Source: a virus
Strand: one strand, 5' to 3'
IMG/VR virus record: IMGVR_UViG_3300030104_001372
Coordinates: 1-24,779 of that record
Length of the DNA: 24,779 bases
A program made the position numbers and the translations under genes. Within the stretch, counting starts at the first letter, position 1, and every line of letters starts with the position of its first letter. Shown here piece by piece: positions 535 to 24,779 of the stretch. The notes below the pieces were generated by a model that saw only the letters and a list, made by a program, of their open reading frames with translations, did no database searches and was not told where the DNA came from.

Positions 535-3092
535 TAATTCACCTCGGTAAGATTGAATTTGTATTTCTTGCCGTTTCTTTTATTAATCAAGAAAAGATCG
601 TCTGAACCTTCTTGTATCGTAAAGCTTCCCCAAGTTCCGTCAACATCGTTTGAGCCGCCTTCATTGGAAAGATTTAAGTCATTTGTATAAATGTTTCTCC
701 AGCGATTACTTGAACTCCCTAAGTCTTTACTATTGTTAGTACTAGGAATGAAATCGAAATAACTAATAACATTAGTAGAGCCATTAACGCAAAAAGCCCA
801 GTCACCATTTGCATTTAAAAATCCTACCTGACTACTATTATTTGCATAAACATATCCTCTAATTGTTCCTCCATGTTCATCTCTAAAGATGATTCCATTA
901 GCAGAAGTTCCACCTGCTATGTTCCAATAATCATCATTATGGGAATAAAAATGTTGAGTAGTCGCAGAGTTATATAATCCTTCCCCTGAACCATTATTGT
1001 AAAACCAATTACTACAGATTATATTATTACTAGCATTTACCTGACCAGTAATATTTAGAGAACCTCTTTCTAAATGTGTATTAGAACCGTCACCTTTAAT
1101 TAACCAATTTCCCGTATTATCTAACAGTCCAAACCCACTTGAATCCCAATAAATATACCCCTTTCGACCTGTTGAATTTCCTGCCGCACTATTGTATCTG
1201 TCATAAAGAATTAAAGCTCCATGAGTTATATCTCCACTATTACCGTTGAGATGCCAATAGTTATCACTTGCATTGTAAAAATGAGCATCGTTCGCTTGGT
1301 TATATAAACCCTCTCCTGACCCATTATTTCTAAACCAGTCGTTAGAGTAAAGATTTCCAAAAGTCGGTTGAGAAGTGGTTAAAACTGCTTGGTTTAGGTA
1401 AGAGCTAAATTGATTTCCATCCCATAAATCGGAATCTAACCCCGATCCTGCTCCATCTACAGTTTTAATTGCAGTAAGAATTTCGGCTGCTGTTTGATCG
1501 GCAGTTGCACTAGCTTCGATACCGTCAAGCTTAGATTTCAGCGTATTAGTAAAATTATTCTGAGTTAATCCACCGTCGCCAACTGATAAATTGCCTTCGT
1601 GATAAATGGAATGATAAGTAGAGCCATCAACAGAAAAAGTAATATCATCTTTAATCAATAAAGAAGAAGAATCTTCTTGGTTATATATCCCTAAGAAACC
1701 ATTAGCGTTCCACTGAATATAAGCTTTATTTGTTGTTCCTTCTTGGAATCTAATTAAAGGATCACCCGTTCCAGCTAAGACTAATTTTTCATTATCATTA
1801 TCTTGATTAAGTGTTAATCTTGCCGACATACTGTCAGCCGCATTTGATCTCAAAAATTCAGCCGAATCAATACCATCTAAAGTTGTTGCGTTGACGTTGG
1901 TTAAAGAAGCCCCAGAGCCGCTAAATGTTGTTGCTGTGCATGTCCCTGATACTGTTACCCCAGTATTTGAAGTTGTCAATTTAGCTGAATCAGCAAATCT
2001 TAAATCAACGGCTCCTCCGTTTGCAACACAATGAATAGAAGTTTTATCGGCATTATCTCCTGTCCCTGTATTTATAGATATAGAATGATTTGTAGGAGCT
2101 TCAATTATATTTGCATTTGAACTATGGTGAATAATCAAATCTTGAGAACTGCCTAATACAAGCTTGACTCCATCATTTCCCCTAAACCGAGTTGAAGCCC
2201 AAATAGAAGCATAATTATTTGTTCCGTTTCCGATATTTCTAGTATTATCTCCATCAGGATTTATGTCTCTTGCTGTTAGCGTCCCAGTTAAAGTTCCACC
2301 TGCTAAAGGTAACTTAGTGGCAATACTATTTGTAACCGTAGTCGAGAAGTTAGCATCATCTCCAAGTGCTGCTGCAAGCTCATTTAATGTATTTAAGGCA
2401 CTAGGAGAACTATCAACTAAGTTTGAAATCGCTGTGTCTGTATAGGCTGTCGTTGCTACTTTTGTACTATTATCACTTGCTGATTGGGTCGTTGCTGTTA
2501 CACCATTTGCAATTGCACCTGATAATTGTGCCGCAGGAAGTGAAGTTAAATTTGCACCGCTTCCATAAATATTATCTCCATAAATATTTGCCCAACGTGA
2601 TCCGTTTGACCCTATATCATGCGTACTATCCCCATAAGGAAGAATATTTCCATTCCATGAAACTTTTTGAGCAAAATAGAAAGAAGTTCTATCGGTATGA
2701 AAATGACACCAACTTGTATTCTTAGGGCCAATATCTACATATCCAGAATCAGTAGTGATCCTTAAAGTATTAGTAGAACCTTCTGATAAAGATGTATAAA
2801 CGTCATTGAAATTTAAAGCCCCAGTTAAAGTTCCACCTGCAAGAGGAAGTTTATTGGCTACCTGAGTCGCACCTGAATCAATAGTCCAAGTAGAGCCAGA
2901 TGAGCTAACAGTTATATCCCCCTTGTCTCCATCAGCTACACCACTTGATGCTCCAATCTCTGTGATATTTCCAGCATCGTTTTTTGTGAATAGCGTTCCG
3001 TTATCCGTTCTTAATGCAACCTCACCGACACTAAGATCACTTGCCCCAGGATCAGATCCAGAACCCCTCTTTAACTTAATTGTGTTAGCCAT
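534..3092 (-). CDS. Large tail fibre protein, 852 aa, with repeated modules
   Basis: This is the largest fibre of the cluster and a likely host-recognition protein on the virion surface. The N terminus (MANTIKLKRGSGS) resembles that of the 320-aa fibre next door and probably attaches the fibre. Recognisable modules are LPLAGGTLTG at residues 85-94 and 261-270. Three D(I/L)G....RW..IY repeats start near 159, 286 and 789. A segment is tandemly duplicated at 583-673 and 693-780 (period 110 residues, shared core NNGSGEGLYN). The C terminus is DDLFLINKRNGKKYKFNLTEV, trimmed here to its recognisable core GKKYKFNLTEV, which I recall in marine phage fibres. The ATG has an AGGAGG Shine-Dalgarno at 3101-3106, spacing 8 nt. 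Only 26 nt separate it from the upstream fibre gene. Confidence 0.85.
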   Translation of the reverse strand: MANTIKLKRGSGSDPGASDLSVGEVALRTDNGTLFTKNDAGNITEIGASSGVADGDKGDITVSSSGSTWTIDSGATQVANKLPLAGGTLTGALNFNDVYTSLSEGSTNTLRITTDSGYVDIGPKNTSWCHFHTDRTSFYFAQKVSWNGNILPYGDSTHDIGSNGSRWANIYGDNIYGSGANLTSLPAAQLSGAIANGVTATTQSASDNSTKVATTAYTDTAISNLVDSSPSALNTLNELAAALGDDANFSTTVTNSIATKLPLAGGTLTGTLTARDINPDGDNTRNIGNGTNNYASIWASTRFRGNDGVKLVLGSSQDLIIHHSSNANIIEAPTNHSISINTGTGDNADKTSIHCVANGGAVDLRFADSAKLTTSNTGVTVSGTCTATTFSGSGASLTNVNATTLDGIDSAEFLRSNAADSMSARLTLNQDNDNEKLVLAGTGDPLIRFQEGTTNKAYIQWNANGFLGIYNQEDSSSLLIKDDITFSVDGSTYHSIYHEGNLSVGDGGLTQNNFTNTLKSKLDGIEASATADQTAAEILTAIKTVDGAGSGLDSDLWDGNQFSSYLNQAVLTTSQPTFGNLYSNDWFRNNGSGEGLYNQANDAHFYNASDNYWHLNGNSGDITHGALILYDRYNSAAGNSTGRKGYIYWDSSGFGLLDNTGNWLIKGDGSNTHLERGSLNITGQVNASNNIICSNWFYNNGSGEGLYNSATTQHFYSHNDDYWNIAGGTSANGIIFRDEHGGTIRGYVYANNSSQVGFLNANGDWAFCVNGSTNVISYFDFIPSTNNSKDLGSSSNRWRNIYTNDLNLSNEGGSNDVDGTWGSFTIQEGSDDLFLINKRNGKKYKFNLTEVN
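753..1346 (-). repeat. Tandem protein-level duplication inside the 852-aa fibre
   Basis: Two copies of an approximately 90-residue unit (residues 583-673 and 693-780) are offset by exactly 110 residues, about 330 bp. Both contain WF.NNGSGEGLYN, then HFY....D.YW, a hydrophobic strand, G-Y-(I/V)-Y, and a closing G(N/D)W(L/A) strand. The DNA copies differ at many synonymous positions, so the duplication is old or maintained by selection. A shorter third relative of the closing half occurs near residues 457-485. Confidence 0.7.
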
Positions 3093-12761: not shown

Positions 12762-14384
12762 TTAAGAAGCTAAAAGTCCTCCTGGCCTTTTCTCCTGCAC
12801 AAGGATGGACTGGACAGAACTAGCGATTAACTTTCCAAGCATTCTTCCCTCTTCTTCCTCCCCTTGCACGCTTGTCCCTTGTGCATCAACATTTACCACA
12901 ACAGAAGTATTAGACCCACCGCCTTCAACACCTAAAATTCCATTCCTACGTTTTAATGGGAGTATTGCTTCACTACCTTTTTCTCCAGCAACAGCAATGC
13001 CACCATTAGCCATATATTTAAAGTGCGGACTATTTATGACTCCTCCTTTGGCATATTCGGTTACATGTTGACCATCCTCGAAAACATTTCCTTTGGCGCT
13101 AAATATTCCTTTGACCCAACCTGTCAGTGGTGCTGTAATTGCTTCTTGAATAGCGATCCTAGCCATATCTCTAAGGATGCTGTCTGCTAAAGATTTAAAT
13201 TCCAATTTGCCAGTCATCACAAAATCCACTAATGAATCTTCCATCTTTTTAAACGCATTAACGACCATATCTGAAACTCTCGTTGCAATATCTTTTAAAC
13301 CGTTTTTATATTTATCTAATCCTTCAACAGCACCCCTGGCCCATTCGGAATTTAATTTTTTAACAGATTCAGTGACTTCATCTATAACTTCTGGCCTGAA
13401 ATGTCTCCCGACTATTTGCCCTGTTTGTTCTACGTTTCCAGGGGTGTTGAATTGTCCGTCACGTCTCGCTCTATTTTTTTCTAACTCTGATACAAAATCA
13501 GGGTCATCCATTGGATTCCCCCCAAACCCAAACGTCATAAATTTCATAAACCCTTGTAACTCTTTGCTCTTTAAAACTGCGTTTAACCTGTCAACACCAA
13601 ATTCAAGAGCATTAACAACTTTTGTTATACCCTCTAAGTTGTCTTGTACTGCAGTGATTTTTAATTCATCAATTGCTATTTTTAAATCTCTAAACTGCTG
13701 CTCTGGTCCTTTCATGGCTTCCGTTAACTTTTCAGCGCCTTCAGTTCTCAGTCGTTCCAATGCTGGCAAAATATAATCGATCGTCACCTTTCCTTGTTTA
13801 GCAAGATCTCTCATCTGACCAACAGGGACACCCATCTCTTTAGCTATTGCTTGAACAACTGCTGGAGTTTGTTCGAAGACACTATTTAATTCTTGTCCTC
13901 TTAAAACGCCAGTTCCTAAAGCCTGAGATAATTGTAAGAACGCACCGGATGCTTCAGAAGCAGTCGTTCCGCTTAACTTTGCCGCCGTATTAAATCCTTC
14001 ATAAACAGTTCTAATATCTTCTAGTTCTAATCCAATCGGTCTTAAACGTGCATAAATTTGAGCAAATTCCTTATTGGCTTGAGTTTGACTAATTCCAAAT
14101 TTTTCTGAAGCTGCACTCGCTGCATTCTGAACGCTCGCTAAATTATCAAATCCTTCTGATAGTAACTTTAATCTTCTTTCTGATTCGGCTCTTTGTACTG
14201 TGACGTTTAACGCATCTTGGACAACTCTTAAAGCAACATAAGCCTTTGCTAAACCATCAAAAGTTAATTTGACATTCTTAACTTTCCCTGCCAACCCCTG
14301 CATGGAGTTGCCTAAACGCTTGATGCCTTGCGCTCCTAAAGTCTTAACAGCCAGGAGCATTGAAAACTTTGTGCCTTGCGCCAT
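12762..14384 (-). CDS. H: Tape measure protein (lambda gpH-like), 540 aa
   Basis: Sets tail length and helps deliver DNA. The N-terminal domain (about 80-270) matches the tape-measure N domain, with EKFGISQTQANKEFAQIYAR, TASEASGAFLQLSQALGTG, LRGQELNSVFEQTPAVVQAI and GQMRDLAKQGKVTIDYI. A short helical middle follows. The C-terminal segment holds MEDSLVDFVMTGKLEFKSL with DMARIAIQEAITAPL, as in lambda gpH, and then the family run GGIAVAGEKGSEAILPLKRR. At about 0.15 nm per residue (a rule of thumb) 540 aa would measure a tail near 80 nm, shorter than lambda. The ATG has an AAGGAG Shine-Dalgarno and lies 1 nt beyond the chaperone T-part stop. Confidence 0.94.
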   Translation of the reverse strand: MAQGTKFSMLLAVKTLGAQGIKRLGNSMQGLAGKVKNVKLTFDGLAKAYVALRVVQDALNVTVQRAESERRLKLLSEGFDNLASVQNAASAASEKFGISQTQANKEFAQIYARLRPIGLELEDIRTVYEGFNTAAKLSGTTASEASGAFLQLSQALGTGVLRGQELNSVFEQTPAVVQAIAKEMGVPVGQMRDLAKQGKVTIDYILPALERLRTEGAEKLTEAMKGPEQQFRDLKIAIDELKITAVQDNLEGITKVVNALEFGVDRLNAVLKSKELQGFMKFMTFGFGGNPMDDPDFVSELEKNRARRDGQFNTPGNVEQTGQIVGRHFRPEVIDEVTESVKKLNSEWARGAVEGLDKYKNGLKDIATRVSDMVVNAFKKMEDSLVDFVMTGKLEFKSLADSILRDMARIAIQEAITAPLTGWVKGIFSAKGNVFEDGQHVTEYAKGGVINSPHFKYMANGGIAVAGEKGSEAILPLKRRNGILGVEGGGSNTSVVVNVDAQGTSVQGEEEEGRMLGKLIASSVQSILVQEKRPGGLLAS

Positions 14385-14711
14385 CTACTTCTTCTCCTTA
14401 TTCATCTCAGCTAGTGCTGCGACTTCGATCACTTGTAAATCTTGAAGCACAGAACCTAGATTCTCATATTCATATAGTTTAGCTGTGCTTATTACGCTGG
14501 CATAGTCTAATCCAATAACACCACCCATAGTCGTCCTCCATTGCGTTTGAACTTTTAAAAATAGCGTTAGCGCATCCCAATTCTCAGGCAATACTTCAAA
14601 GTCAGGTTCAGGTTCAGGTTCAGGAAGAGCAATCCCAAACGCTGCTGCATCCTTTTCTAACAACTCCTTTGAATCACCGCCACTACACCAATAAATAGCA
14701 GCGGCTTTTAG
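14385..14711 (-). CDS. GT: Tail chaperone T-part, made as G-T fusion by -1 frameshift
   Basis: This frame lies -1 to gene G and is open from the slippery site (14711) to the stop at 14385, 108 codons. If entered by frameshift it gives LKAAAIYWCSGGDSKELLEK and onward, including a Pro-Glu repeat (PEPEPEPD) and the C-terminal GVIGLDYASVISTAKLYEYE typical of small phage tail chaperones. Fused to G it forms a product of about 221 aa, the equivalent of lambda gpGT. A free start is unlikely: the first usable codon is TTG at 14663 with the AAGGAG directly adjacent. Lambda gpGT binds tape measure and tube protein through its T part. Confidence 0.85.
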   Translation of the reverse strand, partial: LKAAAIYWCSGGDSKELLEKDAAAFGIALPEPEPEPDFEVLPENWDALTLFLKVQTQWRTTMGGVIGLDYASVISTAKLYEYENLGSVLQDLQVIEVAALAEMNKEKK

Positions 14712-14717
14712 TTTTTT
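14679..14717 (-). promoter_or_regulatory. -1 programmed frameshift signal (A AAA AAC plus stem-loop)
   Basis: The last sense codons of G read GTA AAA AAC, which contains the zero-frame slippery heptamer A AAA AAC (14717-14711), just before the TAA stop (14710-14708). Five nucleotides later (TAAAA) an 8-bp stem forms: GCCGCTGC (14705-14698) with GTAGTGGC (14686-14679), two G.U pairs, loop of 11 nt. Slipping back one base enters the T frame, which is open for 108 codons. Heptamer, 5-nt spacer and stem are the standard parts of a -1 frameshift site, at the position used in lambda G/GT. Confidence 0.85.
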
Positions 14718-15049
14718 ACTTTGACTCCAGAAATACTATCGAAGAATGATTTAGATATTGCATTTGCAACCATTGGGACATCTACCAATTTATTTAAATT
14801 AGAAACTGAAAATTCGAGTGGGTTTCCTTCGTCATCATCAATTCCCTCCCATCCAACTAAAACCTCATGCGCCATCTTCTTTGATGTAATTTTTCCTTTT
14901 TGGATTTGATTGCCTAATTCATCCACGCGAGTCATTGAGAGTCTTTTAAAGACACCATCAAAAGTGCATCTTTTATGTCTTCCGTCCATTGGTATATCAA
15001 CGGAAACAGGCCATTTGTAAGTGTCCGATTGCTTTAATACAAAAGCCAT
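14708..15049 (-). CDS. G: Tail assembly chaperone G (lambda gpG-like), 113 aa
   Basis: Short chaperone between the tail tube and tape measure genes, as in lambda. It begins MAFVLKQSDTYKWPVSVDIP, the pattern of phage tail chaperones that start with a lysine-bearing strand. It continues with RLSMTRVDELGNQI and AHEVLVGWEGIDDDEGNPLE, a common helix-turn-acidic segment of this group. It coats the tape measure protein during tail assembly, with a minority of ribosomes shifting -1 near its end to make the G-T fusion. The start is ATG 15049, preceded by an eight-T run on the coding strand and no Shine-Dalgarno. Length is typical of this group. Confidence 0.88.
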   Translation of the reverse strand: MAFVLKQSDTYKWPVSVDIPMDGRHKRCTFDGVFKRLSMTRVDELGNQIQKGKITSKKMAHEVLVGWEGIDDDEGNPLEFSVSNLNKLVDVPMVANAISKSFFDSISGVKVKN

Positions 15050-15100: not shown

Positions 15101-16039
15101 TTAGTGGAATTTGAGACTAAATTCATTATTACCTGCAGTTGTAGGAATAGCATTGTAATTCATATTCAGCATCGCCACACCGTCTGAGTCAGAGTAAGTT
15201 GGCTCTTGTATATCAGTTTGTCCCAAAGTAAGAGTGACACGGTTACCTGCTACTTGGCCATGTTGAAAAGTCAAGTTCCCAGTTGATCCACTTGTATTTG
15301 CAATTGCAAAATAATCCTTCGTTCCTAATGGTGGAGCCTCAATAGTTACAGAACCACTTGGTGCTCTCTCTGTAATTAATACTTCCTTTGTTCCTTGTAC
15401 AAGCTCTCTATATGTGACCTGATTAGCGTTGTCATAACTAAAGGACTGTAATGCTGCCGCATAGCTATGAAATTGAAATGCCGTTGTATTATCTTTATTG
15501 AAAATTACTGGACTTGCTTGATTTTGATATGTTGGCGTTGGATTTGAACTTGCACCTGGAGCCACATATATTCCAGTGAAAGTGAACGAAATTACAGGAA
15601 TGTTTGAAACTTCTGCTGAGATACTAAAACTGCCTCTTGCTCCTCGAATTTGATGACGTTGCCCATCTAGATAAAACCATAAGGTTGAACTAGGAAAAGA
15701 AGCAGAAATCGGAGCATAAGTATTACTTGTCCCGCTAACAGTTGTAATAGCTGTACCGCAACTTAAAAGAAGATTTGAGAATGCTGGTGCAGTGCCTGCT
15801 GTACCTGAAGCAGCCATCTCAACCTCGAAGGTCACCATTACATGCTGATCGGCAAGAATGGTCTCATAATTTCCCATATATCCACGAACAAGATCTCGAC
15901 TCACCTGCGTAGCTGATAAAGGAGTCAGATCAATACTTCGGCATAAGATACTATTTGCAGACCCTGTAGGGGTTGGATCAGTGCCGTAACTTGACTCTGC
16001 CTTAGCAAGTAATATTCTTTGAGATTGTCTAAGAGCCAT
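15101..16039 (-). CDS. Major tail tube protein (lambda gpV-like), 312 aa
   Basis: Forms the stacked rings of the tail tube. The start MALRQSQRILLAKAESSYGT is characteristic of phage tube proteins of this group, followed by a beta-rich body with YMGNYETILADQHVMVTFEVEM (83 region) and FSNLLLSCGTAIT. Mid-region strands are TLWFYLDGQRHQIRGARGSFS and ISFTFTGIYVAPG. The C-terminal part (ILITERAPSGSVTIEAPPLG-like, TLTLGQTD..EPTYSDSDG) continues beta structure and may hold an added Ig-like domain. It is placed between the terminator gene and the chaperones, as in lambda. The start is ATG 16039 with an AAAGGAA Shine-Dalgarno 8 nt upstream. Confidence 0.92.
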   Translation of the reverse strand: MALRQSQRILLAKAESSYGTDPTPTGSANSILCRSIDLTPLSATQVSRDLVRGYMGNYETILADQHVMVTFEVEMAASGTAGTAPAFSNLLLSCGTAITTVSGTSNTYAPISASFPSSTLWFYLDGQRHQIRGARGSFSISAEVSNIPVISFTFTGIYVAPGASSNPTPTYQNQASPVIFNKDNTTAFQFHSYAAALQSFSYDNANQVTYRELVQGTKEVLITERAPSGSVTIEAPPLGTKDYFAIANTSGSTGNLTFQHGQVAGNRVTLTLGQTDIQEPTYSDSDGVAMLNMNYNAIPTTAGNNEFSLKFH

Positions 16040-17022: not shown

Positions 17023-18954
17023 TTAAGTTGTGATGTCGGCAATCTTACCGAAGGAAACAGGATTTCTTACAGCCACATCAAGGGTCATAATTCCTCTGAT
17101 GGAAGTAAGATTTTTGCTGAAGTCATCAGCATCCTCACCCACAGTAATTTCTAAACCTCCGCCCCATGTACCCACGATGCACTGAGAGAAGTCACCATAA
17201 ACGAGTGCAGAACAAACGCCAGAAGATGAACCCTTAGTAAGGTTGGCTGGAACTTGGTTTGATGAAAGAACACCCCAACCATTGAGAGTTGCTGGAGTAC
17301 CACCACGACCAATAGCTTGTAAGTCTTGGTTGTAAAGGTATTCACCGCCAGAAGTTTTTAATTTCTTAAGTGATCCAACCACCTTCGCATTGGTAATGTA
17401 CTTAACAGCACCTGTATTTACAGCGCCGTTATCTTCCATAATCGCAGTCTCTAGATCGACCACTTTATCCATTGTTAGCGCACCGCCATTCGTGCCAATT
17501 GCCACTGAATTTATTGATCCAGTATTCATAATCCCCGTGGGCTGCCCTGAAGAGCCAGAGCCATTAAGAATTGCGCGATCCATTTCTAGCTGTAGACCAT
17601 CACGAAGGTCGTCTCTAATTAGCTGCTCAATTCCAGGAGTACCTTGTAAAAGGATCTGCCTAGAGTGCTTTTGAATTGCGGCTAAATTTTTCGGACTCAA
17701 AGTGATTTGATCAAAAGTTGAGTTCGAGAAAGTTATCGCCGTAGTTTCATTTGAGAGCCAATAAGTACTGCCAACTCCACTGCGACGTGGAATCGCGACA
17801 TCACCAACTAGACCATTAATAGTACGAACGCCTGCACCGTTGGGCCCAAGCATCACACTTTGATTTCGTAACGCCTCAATAAAATCAGAAGCTAAAAGAT
17901 CAGTTGCGACTATGTTTCCACCAACATTGGCCGTCGCCGCCACGTAGGTAGCTCTTTCTGATAATGCAGAAAAAGGAACAAAGAAACTCTTTTCTGTAGA
18001 GCGCTTGTGACCTTTCTTTTCTACTTCACGAGATAGTTCGCGAACATAACCAGACTCTCTAGATGACCAGTCACCAGTTAGAAGAGAACGAATACCAGCT
18101 GTGATTTGATAATCGCATTGCTCCTTTTCTGACATCTCCACTGGAGAGACAGTTTCTACAGGACGCTTTCTGATTTCTTCTAGTGCTTTTGCACGAGCTT
18201 CTTCGATAGGCATTCCGCTATCTTCTGCTGTTTTCGCAAGTTCAGGAAGATTATGCGCAGCACATAATTCACGAATAGATGCGACTCTGGCGCGTTCTTT
18301 GCTAAGGACAGATTTCTCTGCTTCAGCACGCACCACTTCAAGATCGGGAGTGGTAGACATTTCTACTTTTGTTTTTATAGAAGGACAAGGTGGTGCGACA
18401 GTTGTCGCGTCAGCGTCACTAGTACGCTCTTCTGCCATATTAGATGGCTTGTCTGTTTTAGACGTAGGCTTAGCAGATCTGCCTATGCCAACGGAGGGAT
18501 CTGCAGCCAAACTGCAGATGGATACCTCATGCGGACACCAGTCCAGAGCTCTGTAGCCACCTTCAAATTCCTCGGTATCGCGGACAGAATAACCAGTTGA
18601 AACCCCTCTCAGGATTCCTTTCTGGACATCGTTGAATACTTCAGATGGAAATGGATTGTCAGAGAAGCGCACTTTTACATAGCCACGCTTATTTTTTAAA
18701 TACGCAGCCTCGACTACACCGATGGGTTTATCTCTGTCGTGATTAAACAACAAAGGAGCCGCATCTAGTAAGCGAGATAAGTCAACAGAGCTTTCACTAT
18801 GATCGAGAACCTCGTCACCAAGGTATCCCCTATCGACTGGCATTTCTGAACTAAAGGGAAACTCAACTGTGCGCGATTCTTCGTCAACCTTAAATTTGAC
18901 TGACTTTGGTTCAGCGCGAAGTTCAAGCTTCTCTTCTACATCACGTGCCTCCAT
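17023..18954 (-). CDS. Prohead protease-major capsid protein fusion, 643 aa
   Basis: One frame encodes two normally separate head functions. Residues 20-160 are an HK97-type prohead protease: H72 in LLFNHDRDKPIG, Ser119 in LRGVSTGYSV, and the third conserved block WCPHEVSICSLAADPSVGIGRS near 139-160. Residues 200-265 are charged and helical, like a scaffolding (delta) domain. Residues 330-643 are the HK97-fold capsid protein, with YWLSNETTAITFS, the E-loop-like IAAIQ/KHSRQIL region, LEMDRAILNGSGSSGQPTGI and a C-terminal RNPVSFGKI. Maturation presumably cuts the capsid part free. I checked internal ATGs at codons 173 and 199: neither has a Shine-Dalgarno, so separate translation is unlikely. 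The start overlaps the portal end by 14 nt. Confidence 0.93.
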   Translation of the reverse strand: MEARDVEEKLELRAEPKSVKFKVDEESRTVEFPFSSEMPVDRGYLGDEVLDHSESSVDLSRLLDAAPLLFNHDRDKPIGVVEAAYLKNKRGYVKVRFSDNPFPSEVFNDVQKGILRGVSTGYSVRDTEEFEGGYRALDWCPHEVSICSLAADPSVGIGRSAKPTSKTDKPSNMAEERTSDADATTVAPPCPSIKTKVEMSTTPDLEVVRAEAEKSVLSKERARVASIRELCAAHNLPELAKTAEDSGMPIEEARAKALEEIRKRPVETVSPVEMSEKEQCDYQITAGIRSLLTGDWSSRESGYVRELSREVEKKGHKRSTEKSFFVPFSALSERATYVAATANVGGNIVATDLLASDFIEALRNQSVMLGPNGAGVRTINGLVGDVAIPRRSGVGSTYWLSNETTAITFSNSTFDQITLSPKNLAAIQKHSRQILLQGTPGIEQLIRDDLRDGLQLEMDRAILNGSGSSGQPTGIMNTGSINSVAIGTNGGALTMDKVVDLETAIMEDNGAVNTGAVKYITNAKVVGSLKKLKTSGGEYLYNQDLQAIGRGGTPATLNGWGVLSSNQVPANLTKGSSSGVCSALVYGDFSQCIVGTWGGGLEITVGEDADDFSKNLTSIRGIMTLDVAVRNPVSFGKIADITT

Positions 18955-22932: not shown

Positions 22933-23425
22933 TTAATCCCTCCAGAACTAAGGCAATTTCATTTGTTAACAAAGTGTGAATCTTTGCTTGCTCCGTTTCT
23001 GCTGCTGCAATTGGAGCGATTCGATCAGGAATTGCTTTTAAAGAATCGCGCAAACCCATGTGTAATTTCGCAAGCTTTAATTTTAAATCTGCTTTGTCAA
23101 TCAACTTTGAGCTCTTCTCTCGATATTCCAATTCACAAAGTCTCGCTGCAAATGCTTCTCTAATAGCTCGACTCCTAGCGAAAGAAGGCACAGCCTTTTG
23201 ATCTGCATCTTGTCTCCTTAGATTTGCATCTAAATTTGGCGCTCCACCTAAACCTCCTCTATCAGGAGACTTCGTTCCGGCTATCTCTCGATCAAGCGCA
23301 TCTTTATCAGTAATCATATAAGTTCTGCCTTTCTTTCTAAGACTTGGCAGCCGACCACTAGCTGCCCAACGAATCAGCGTTGTATATGCAACATCGCATT
23401 TCGCTGCATACTCTTTTAATGTCAT
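22916..23425 (-). CDS. Small terminase-like DNA-binding protein, 169 aa
   Basis: Lies directly before the large terminase and overlaps it by 17 nt. Residues 1-50 are a MerR/excisionase-type winged helix-turn-helix: MTLKEYAAKCDVAYTTLIRW, with the turn AASGRLPSLRKKGRTYM. A polar linker rich in Asp, Gly and Arg follows. The C-terminal half is helical (LCELEYREKSSKLIDKADL and LAKLHMGLRDSLKAIPDRI), a likely oligomerisation region. This is the plan of lambda Nu1 and related proteins that recognise the packaging site and recruit the large subunit. The ATG overlaps the methyltransferase stop as ATGA. It could alternatively be a regulator, but the position strongly favours packaging. Confidence 0.87.
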   Translation of the reverse strand: MTLKEYAAKCDVAYTTLIRWAASGRLPSLRKKGRTYMITDKDALDREIAGTKSPDRGGLGGAPNLDANLRRQDADQKAVPSFARSRAIREAFAARLCELEYREKSSKLIDKADLKLKLAKLHMGLRDSLKAIPDRIAPIAAAETEQAKIHTLLTNEIALVLEGLSVSSY

Positions 23426-24645
23426 GCCGCTATAACCTCCATAGGTTCAGTAGATGGATTACAAATAGCTGTTTTAGAGGTATATTCCTCCCATCTTTTT
23501 ACAATTACGTCGCAATAGCGTGGATCTAGTTCCATTAGGCAAGCTTTACGTCTTGCTCGTTCCGCAGCAATAATTGTCGTTCCCGATCCACCAAAAGAAT
23601 CTAAAACCACTGCTCCTTGAACGGAGGAATTACACATTTGATATTGGAATAAATCGACAGGCTTCATTGTTGGATGTTCCTTGTTCCTACTTGGCCTGTC
23701 AAATTCAAGAACCGTTGTTTGTTTTCGATCTGTATTCCAAGTGTGAGCAGCGCCTTCCTTCCAGCCATATAAACAAGGCTCATGTTTCCAGTGATAATCT
23801 TGCCGACCCATAACCATTGTTTGCTTTAACCAAATCAAGCACTGCCTTACCCTCCAACCCATCTCATCTGCAGCCCCTCGAAAATTAAACCCTTCCGAAT
23901 CTGCATGCCAAATATAAAAAGGAGCGCCAGGTTTCATCACTGCATCTGCGGCTGTATAAACATCAACAAGAAACTGCCTGAAATCTTGAGCGTTCATTGA
24001 ATCGTTTTCAATTATCAACTTGTCTTTTGTTTTACCTTCGTAAGCCACGTTATAGGGAGGATCAGTAAGCCAAAGATCTGCCTGCTTACCATCCATCAAC
24101 CTTTCCAATTGCTCAATACTTGTTGAGTCACCACAAAGAAGACGATGCTCACCCAATATCCATAAATCTCCAGGTTTCGTTATTGGGTCAACTGGAACTT
24201 CAGGAATCTCTTCTGCTTCACCTTCATAGGCAGGGTCTAATTCCTCCGGCATCAAATCCGACAATTCCTCATCACTAAAACCAAGCAGGCTTATATCGAA
24301 ATCATCAACGATTAAATCCTTAACCTCACTCCGCAAGAGCTCCATATCCCAACCAGCATTTAAAGCCAGCTGGTTATCAGCTAAAACATAAGCCCTTCTT
24401 TGTCTCTCGCTTAAGTGATCCAGGACAACTACTGGAACTGTAGAAAGTTCTAATTGCTGCGCAGCACAGAGACGACCATGACCAGCAATAATTCCATTAC
24501 CACTATCAACCAAGATTGGGTTTGTAAAACCAAACTCAACTATCGACTTTGCTATCTGTGCAATTTGCTCCTTGTCATGTGTTCTTGCATTCTTCTCGTA
24601 TGGCTTGAGCCTATCTATGGGCCACAACTCTATTCTTTGAGCCAT
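23422..24645 (-). CDS. ParB-like domain fused to DNA methyltransferase, 407 aa
   Basis: A two-domain DNA-modifying protein. Residues 1-110 are ParB/Srx-like: WPIDRLKPYEKNARTH, IAKSIVEFGFTNPI and the nucleotide-binding GHGR (55-58). An acidic linker with PEELDPAYEGEAEEIPEVP follows. Residues 165-395 are a DNA N4-cytosine or N6-adenine methyltransferase with DPPYN (195-199) preceding the SAM-binding DSFGGSGTT (349-357), the beta-class order. I chose ATG 24645 (MAQRIELW) over TTG 24687 because the domain normally starts here. Neither has a clear Shine-Dalgarno. From family knowledge it may protect phage DNA from host restriction or mark it for packaging. It is the first gene before the terminase pair. 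Confidence 0.92.
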   Translation of the reverse strand: MAQRIELWPIDRLKPYEKNARTHDKEQIAQIAKSIVEFGFTNPILVDSGNGIIAGHGRLCAAQQLELSTVPVVVLDHLSERQRRAYVLADNQLALNAGWDMELLRSEVKDLIVDDFDISLLGFSDEELSDLMPEELDPAYEGEAEEIPEVPVDPITKPGDLWILGEHRLLCGDSTSIEQLERLMDGKQADLWLTDPPYNVAYEGKTKDKLIIENDSMNAQDFRQFLVDVYTAADAVMKPGAPFYIWHADSEGFNFRGAADEMGWRVRQCLIWLKQTMVMGRQDYHWKHEPCLYGWKEGAAHTWNTDRKQTTVLEFDRPSRNKEHPTMKPVDLFQYQMCNSSVQGAVVLDSFGGSGTTIIAAERARRKACLMELDPRYCDVIVKRWEEYTSKTAICNPSTEPMEVIAA

Positions 24646-24779
24646 GTGAATAGATAATTCTTTACCAATCTGCTCAGGCACAAGCAATGAAAATCACTAA
24701 AACCATCTTAGACATGTGAAAACCACTAAATCGGTTTTGAGTTGCTCACGCTAGAAAAATCCTGCGCCTTTGGATGACC
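24646..24779 (-). other. Leader region before the methyltransferase with repeats
   Basis: A 134-nt non-coding or weakly coding stretch. On the plus strand two near-identical 15-mers, GAAAATCACTAAAAC (24689-24703) and GAAAACCACTAAATC (24718-24732), lie 29 bp apart with two mismatches. The second overlaps an inverted repeat, AAAACC (24719-24724) and GGTTTT (24733-24738), with an 8-nt loop. This could be an operator or a hairpin in the leader. I see no convincing -35/-10 promoter and no terminator. Confidence 0.45.
24726..24779 (-). CDS. Possible 3' end of an upstream gene (partial, weak)
   Basis: One minus-strand frame is open from the right edge to a TAG at 24728-24726 and would encode the last 17 residues, GHPKAQDFSSVSNSKPI. 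The other two minus-strand frames contain stops within 40 nt. The fragment is too short to identify, and an open stretch of this length occurs often by chance. If real, its stop would lie about 80 nt before the methyltransferase start. Confidence 0.25.
   Translation of the reverse strand, partial: GHPKAQDFSSVSNSKPI

Follow-up and report, generated by a model that had tools for sequence, protein, structure and literature searches.

The tail assembly chaperones of phage lambda are made, by a classical −1 frameshift, as a G protein and a minority G-T fusion at a G:GT ratio of ∼30:1, with G binding the tape measure protein and T binding the tail tube protein (PMC5009743). At the tail chaperone locus of other phages the slippery heptamer AAAAAAC has been reported for Loki, phiCbK and HCTV-2, and GGGAAAC for Colossus. 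A_AAA_AAC works with low efficiency in E. coli, and both this sequence and G GGA AAC are frequent in IS elements even though they are poor in E. coli (PMC4066793). The GeneTack survey also places A_AAA_AAC among its consensus heptamers, and the frameshifting measured there for a cluster of tail chaperones reaches 6–7% in E. coli (PMC3711429). Shine-Dalgarno (SD) elements that accompany −1 sites have been quoted as lying 9–14 nt upstream of the heptamer (PMC5009743), and that of E. coli dnaX is read 10 nt upstream of its own.

The DNA considered here, called the window, is the whole 24,779-nt stretch of the uncultivated phage record IMGVR_UViG_3300030104_001372. The minus strand of this 24.8-kb record carries a lambda-like late operon encoding a GpA-type terminase, a lambda-family portal, a fused protease-capsid protein, a tail terminator, the tail tube protein, G, T and the tape measure protein, together with minor tail genes that include M-, L-, K- and J-like members. 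The order Phage_tube_2, Phage_TAC_4, TMP_3 (Pfam) shows that the G-like chaperone ORF is flanked by the tube and tape measure genes, and the tape measure gene directly downstream is in the position expected beside G/GT. Elsewhere in the record, the S78 prohead protease and HK97-like capsid form a single 643-aa ORF (17023–18954, minus strand), nearly all of which is spanned by PHROG 617, and a ParB N-terminal domain is joined to an N6/N4 DNA methylase in one ORF (23422–24687, minus strand). The features of the G–T junction and its flanking genes are as follows.

15101–16039, minus strand: tail tube protein, upstream neighbour in the lambda V position (Pfam Phage_tube_2, E = 1.5e-19)
14708–15049, minus strand: gene G, zero-frame tail assembly chaperone, 113 aa, ending ...VKN stop (ORF and families)
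14725–14728, minus strand: internal SD-like GGAG, 7 nt 5′ of the heptamer (read directly; Gly-codon bias)
14711–14717, minus strand: slippery heptamer A AAA AAC in the G frame (read directly; conserved in relatives)
14708–14710, minus strand: zero-frame stop TAA abutting the heptamer (read directly; stop abutting in 265 of 271 loci)
14695–14705, minus strand: 5′ arm of the conserved stem, 5-nt spacer from the heptamer (fold; RNAalifold register)
14676–14686, minus strand: 3′ arm of the conserved stem (fold; covariation)
14385–14711, minus strand: T frame (−1), 108 codons from CTA to TAG, DUF1799 T domain (Pfam, PHROG)
12762–14384, minus strand: tape measure protein, 540 aa, directly downstream (Pfam TMP_3, Tape_meas_lam_C)

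The G product matches Pfam Phage_TAC_4 at 23.0 bits (cut-off 21.1), PHROG 569 at E = 4e-18 and PHROG 313, 'Tail assembly chaperone', at E = 4e-4. Its minus-strand 3′ end reads ...GGA GTC AAA GTA AAA AAC TAA, and the in-frame A AAA AAC that the original prediction had placed at the end of G is indeed present at 14717..14711, in the zero frame of the G ORF (15049..14708). The −1 frame is entered at CTA at 14711 and ends with TAG at 14385, so that the predicted 108-codon extension and 221-aa fusion (113 + 108) are confirmed by ORF reading. The encoded T domain matches Pfam DUF1799 at 61.5 bits (cut-off 26) and PHROG 680 at E = 4e-27. Within the T gene, a short GAACCT hexamer repeat (∼14600–14622, minus strand) codes for EPEPEPE, a stretch whose length varies among relatives. 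As a word, AAAAAAC occurs in the window 13 times against 11.4 expected, which is not significant alone, and the significance of the site therefore comes from its frame, position and conservation.

Taken together, the 3′ end of this lambda-G-like tail chaperone gene almost certainly carries a programmed −1 ribosomal frameshift site. As inferred from the sequence, most ribosomes would end at TAA to give G of 113 aa, while a minority would shift their pairing back by one base on A AAA AAC and produce the 221-aa G-T fusion, with the upstream GGAG and the downstream stem-loop likely to aid the slip. By analogy with lambda, the tape measure protein would be coated by G, and the tail tube protein recruited through the T domain that the few G-T molecules carry. 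The efficiency of the slip is probably a few percent, and the low efficiency of A_AAA_AAC would suit a low GT:G ratio. The junction probably retains the zero-frame Asn, as VKN-LKAAAIYW; VKN-L is expected if AAC has already been read by tRNA-Asn when the slip occurs, and the VKK-LKAAAIYW originally proposed would arise only if a Lys-tRNA enters in the −1 frame.

Two samples of relatives were compared. In the first, the T protein used as query recovered 80 viral loci with homology starting at the slip codon. Because one search peptide of this sample overlapped the junction, a second was drawn with the C-terminal part of T only, from viral contigs and bacterial genomes, with 18 named phages added; the C-terminal T alignments exclude the junction, and ascertainment bias at the heptamer is thereby avoided. 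The full, diverse T alignment held no conserved stretch usable for search, and two tighter C-terminal alignments were used; the G protein alone, as query, matched only two viral loci. Zero-frame heptamers of strict XXXYYYZ form, each abutted by a stop, were found at 265 of the 271 pooled T-family loci, so the heptamer is plainly not lacking in related phages. It is AAAAAAC at 256 of these loci, GGGAAAC at eight and AAAAAAG at one. The same picture is obtained when the 265 loci are collapsed to 98 clusters at 90% identity or to 19 at 50%, and the eight GGGAAAC loci represent seven of the latter 19.

The six exceptions are loci L046, L232, L112, L105 and L107 and phage Ymer. L046 (∼2998–3004) has AAAAAGC in place of AAAAAAC, a single base change with the −1 protein kept, which may reflect a point mutation in the phage or a mistake in assembly. 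The exception at L232 is one indel and that at L112 a truncated locus, and the Ymer junction, CAA AAG TAA, still has an A_AAG tetramer available before the stop. L105 and L107 have later stops instead of an abutting one; in L105, from a Synechococcaceae MAG (∼425–432), a run of eight A is followed by CC with the stop 27 nt later, a junction unlike others in the family, at which a different slip or transcriptional slippage is possible.

This arrangement recurs among named phages of Synechococcus, Pseudomonas, Aeromonas, Serratia, Rhodobacter, E. coli, Cronobacter, Stenotrophomonas and Nitratiruptor. S-CBS1, on Synechococcus CB0201, is the closest cultured relative in which both the G and the T protein were found. 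The records of Smarc2 and Silvanus are already annotated with joined frameshift CDSs. The joined G-T product is absent from the records of S-CBS1, S-CBS3, S-LBS1, HK639 and BUCT603 (L084, L085, L086, L092, L093), where T is a separate CDS beginning inside the domain, shortened or unannotated, and in several of the five is named 'tail length tape measure protein'; the G protein of S-LBS1 is named in its record as an ABC transporter ATPase. For the frameshift site, the comparative evidence is far stronger than that of the single sequence.

Codon choice at the junction was examined in group A, the 57–58 clusters near the window, with codon backgrounds taken from elsewhere in the same genes. The Arg codon that supplies the first base of the heptamer is A-ending in 52 of 52 group-A clusters with Arg versus 14% elsewhere, and for the heptamer Lys all 57 of 57 codons are AAA versus 28% elsewhere. 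Where the post-slip Leu precedes Glu, all 10 of 10 codons are CTA versus 11% expected; only CTA makes a zero-frame stop, and this choice of Leu codon shows that the abutting stop is selected. Protein sequence and codon usage would predict abutting stops in 60.4 of the 98 clusters versus 98 seen, but this set is itself defined by the stop and the fair count is therefore the unfiltered 265 of 271 (the rows used for codon counts were preselected for the heptamer and abutting stop, by which five of the 271 loci were lost, plus one truncated). The sequences are related and p-values thus overstate certainty, although the contrasts are large nonetheless. Codon choice at the junction shows selection on nucleotides, beyond that on the protein alone.

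The conserved GGAG at 14728–14725 is an element absent from the original prediction. At this site, the Gly codon is GGA or GGG, giving GGAG or GGGG, in 53 of the 55 group-A clusters with Gly, compared with 25% elsewhere (binomial p 4e-30, for sequences that are non-independent), and the distance to the heptamer is 7 nt in 53 of 58 group-A clusters. Hybridisation energy of the SD-like element measured against synonymous shuffles gave a weak signal, partly because the shuffles use a codon usage that includes the site, and the direct Gly-codon test is the decisive one. With its GGAG at 7 nt, the window falls outside the 9–14 nt range.

Downstream of the heptamer, the best register of the stem in the window has 11 bp and an 8-nt loop (−16.1 kcal/mol), and the 47-nt fold reaches −17.9 kcal/mol, with a z of −3.76 relative to dinucleotide shuffles. 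An RNAalifold consensus of 57 relatives aligned without gaps adopts the same register, and 23 cells changed on both sides of the stem, whereas shuffles gave 2.6 and slid controls no more than 11, which marks the stem as covarying. The stem originally described, of 8 bp with an 11-nt loop (14705–14698/14686–14679), could form at −13.1 kcal/mol; it was rejected as the conserved one, its mean in relatives being −3.8 versus −12.9 kcal/mol for the 11-bp register. The conserved stem lies 3 nt from the register first given and is longer and more stable than it, and both agree with the 5-nt spacer. The description of this stem as more clearly visible than usual does not hold, since such a stem is usual among close relatives. 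In 19 of 58 relatives a third register (+3) gives the best stem, probably owing to GGC repeats.

Group A folds at −19.3 kcal/mol versus −12.7 in synonymous shuffles (mean z −2.2). The more distant groups have mean z values of −0.7 and −1.4 against synonymous shuffles, and the sequences that beat such shuffles at p ≤ 0.05 amount to 15% in group B and 40% in group C. Spacing between heptamer and stem is mostly 4 to 8 nt among relatives. With the covariation, these results show that the stem is real in the window's branch and weaker as a family-wide claim. Searches of the window and site against Rfam gave no match, only chance hits, and the Rfam DnaX model RF00382 had no match in the window at E ≤ 1.

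Synthesis of T as a separate protein, through reinitiation or internal initiation once G has ended, for example from the TTG at 14663–14661, is highly improbable. A GGAG is present at 14667–14664 and many databases annotate T as its own CDS starting inside the T domain, but this GGAG abuts the TTG with a spacing of 0, and the TTG is the only near T start in the window, just as the original prediction had observed. Among relatives, an in-frame T start with an SD of at least 4 nt occurs in only 10 of 98 clusters and at scattered positions, while conservation of the T protein reaches back to the exact slip codon and the bases of the heptamer are kept against codon bias, which reinitiation does not predict. 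The tail-chaperone T of the window thus appears to be without a credible start of its own, as is the rule in relatives. More improbable still is an origin of the fused frame in transcriptional, instead of ribosomal, slippage on the A run. The run comprises six A, and eight in L105, although six A is short for polymerase slippage. GGGAAAC, with three A only, occupies the same place in eight loci drawn from seven of the 19 clusters at 50% identity, and the SD-like element, stem and abutting stop all point to the ribosome.

A stop-coupled variant of the −1 frameshift, in which the slip in the DUF1799 family would occur once AAC occupies the P site and a selected stop the A site, has a much better claim than either of these, although it too is unlikely to be the form that the event takes. 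It would account for the stop that abuts the heptamer at nearly all loci and for the selection evident in the Leu codon choice; in addition, an SD at 7 nt, below the quoted range and the 10 nt of dnaX, is one codon nearer, as expected for a slip one codon later. The abutting stop may, however, merely end G cleanly, which is a simpler use, all three stop codons occur among the loci, and the stem, being variable in spacing, does not confirm the register of the slip. The idea that SD and stem are both shifted by one codon relative to dnaX, and so locate the slip, was rejected since the start of the stem varies; the SD half of it stands. If this variant were true, release-factor level and the close (7 nt) SD would set the G:GT ratio, and such a termination-coupled −1 slip would differ from the usual P/A-site tandem slip. 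In either form, the central claim of the original prediction, a −1 frameshift between G and T, is supported by protein families, gene order, the 265 of 271 loci, codon choice and the covarying stem.

The programmed −1 site at the end of G provides what amounts to clean comparative proof of recoding in environmental phages, for which databases often split the product into two genes. The 98 clusters at 90% identity form a natural series in which heptamers that are poor in E. coli are the standard choice of the family, and since A AAA AAC and G GGA AAC are found almost always with an abutting stop, the role of the stop codon in −1 slippage becomes testable.

In comparison with known systems, the locus resembles lambda G/GT in its position between the tail tube and tape measure genes, in the −1 direction of the shift and in a G protein with a minority G-T fusion, here predicted from the sequence; its L, J, portal and GpA terminase neighbours are also lambda-like. 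It differs from lambda in its heptamer (A AAA AAC instead of GGGAAAG), its abutting zero-frame stop, its SD-like element and conserved stem, and a T of the DUF1799 family. The novelty implied for A AAA AAC relative to the lambda heptamer is not upheld, as this sequence is published for phiCbK, Loki and HCTV-2. The chaperone frameshifts of Loki, IME_AB3, phiCbK, Colossus and HCTV-2 use AAAAAAC, or in Colossus GGGAAAC, at the locus corresponding to that of the window; these are single-phage predictions, likened to the window by heptamer and locus. The HK97-like chaperone cluster of GeneTack likewise makes a frameshift fusion, and may belong to a family other than DUF1799. No description of stop, SD and stem together for DUF1799 as a family was found in the open-access literature. 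With E. coli dnaX the window shares a three-part cassette of SD, A6 heptamer and stem-loop, the downstream stem-loop of dnaX type being represented by the covarying stem; dnaX has A AAA AAG with its SD 10 nt upstream and shifts to give a shorter product, whereas the window has A AAA AAC with its SD at 7 nt. A G/GT frameshift with AAAAAAC or GGGAAAC at this locus is of an already known kind, and the window is ordinary in kind.
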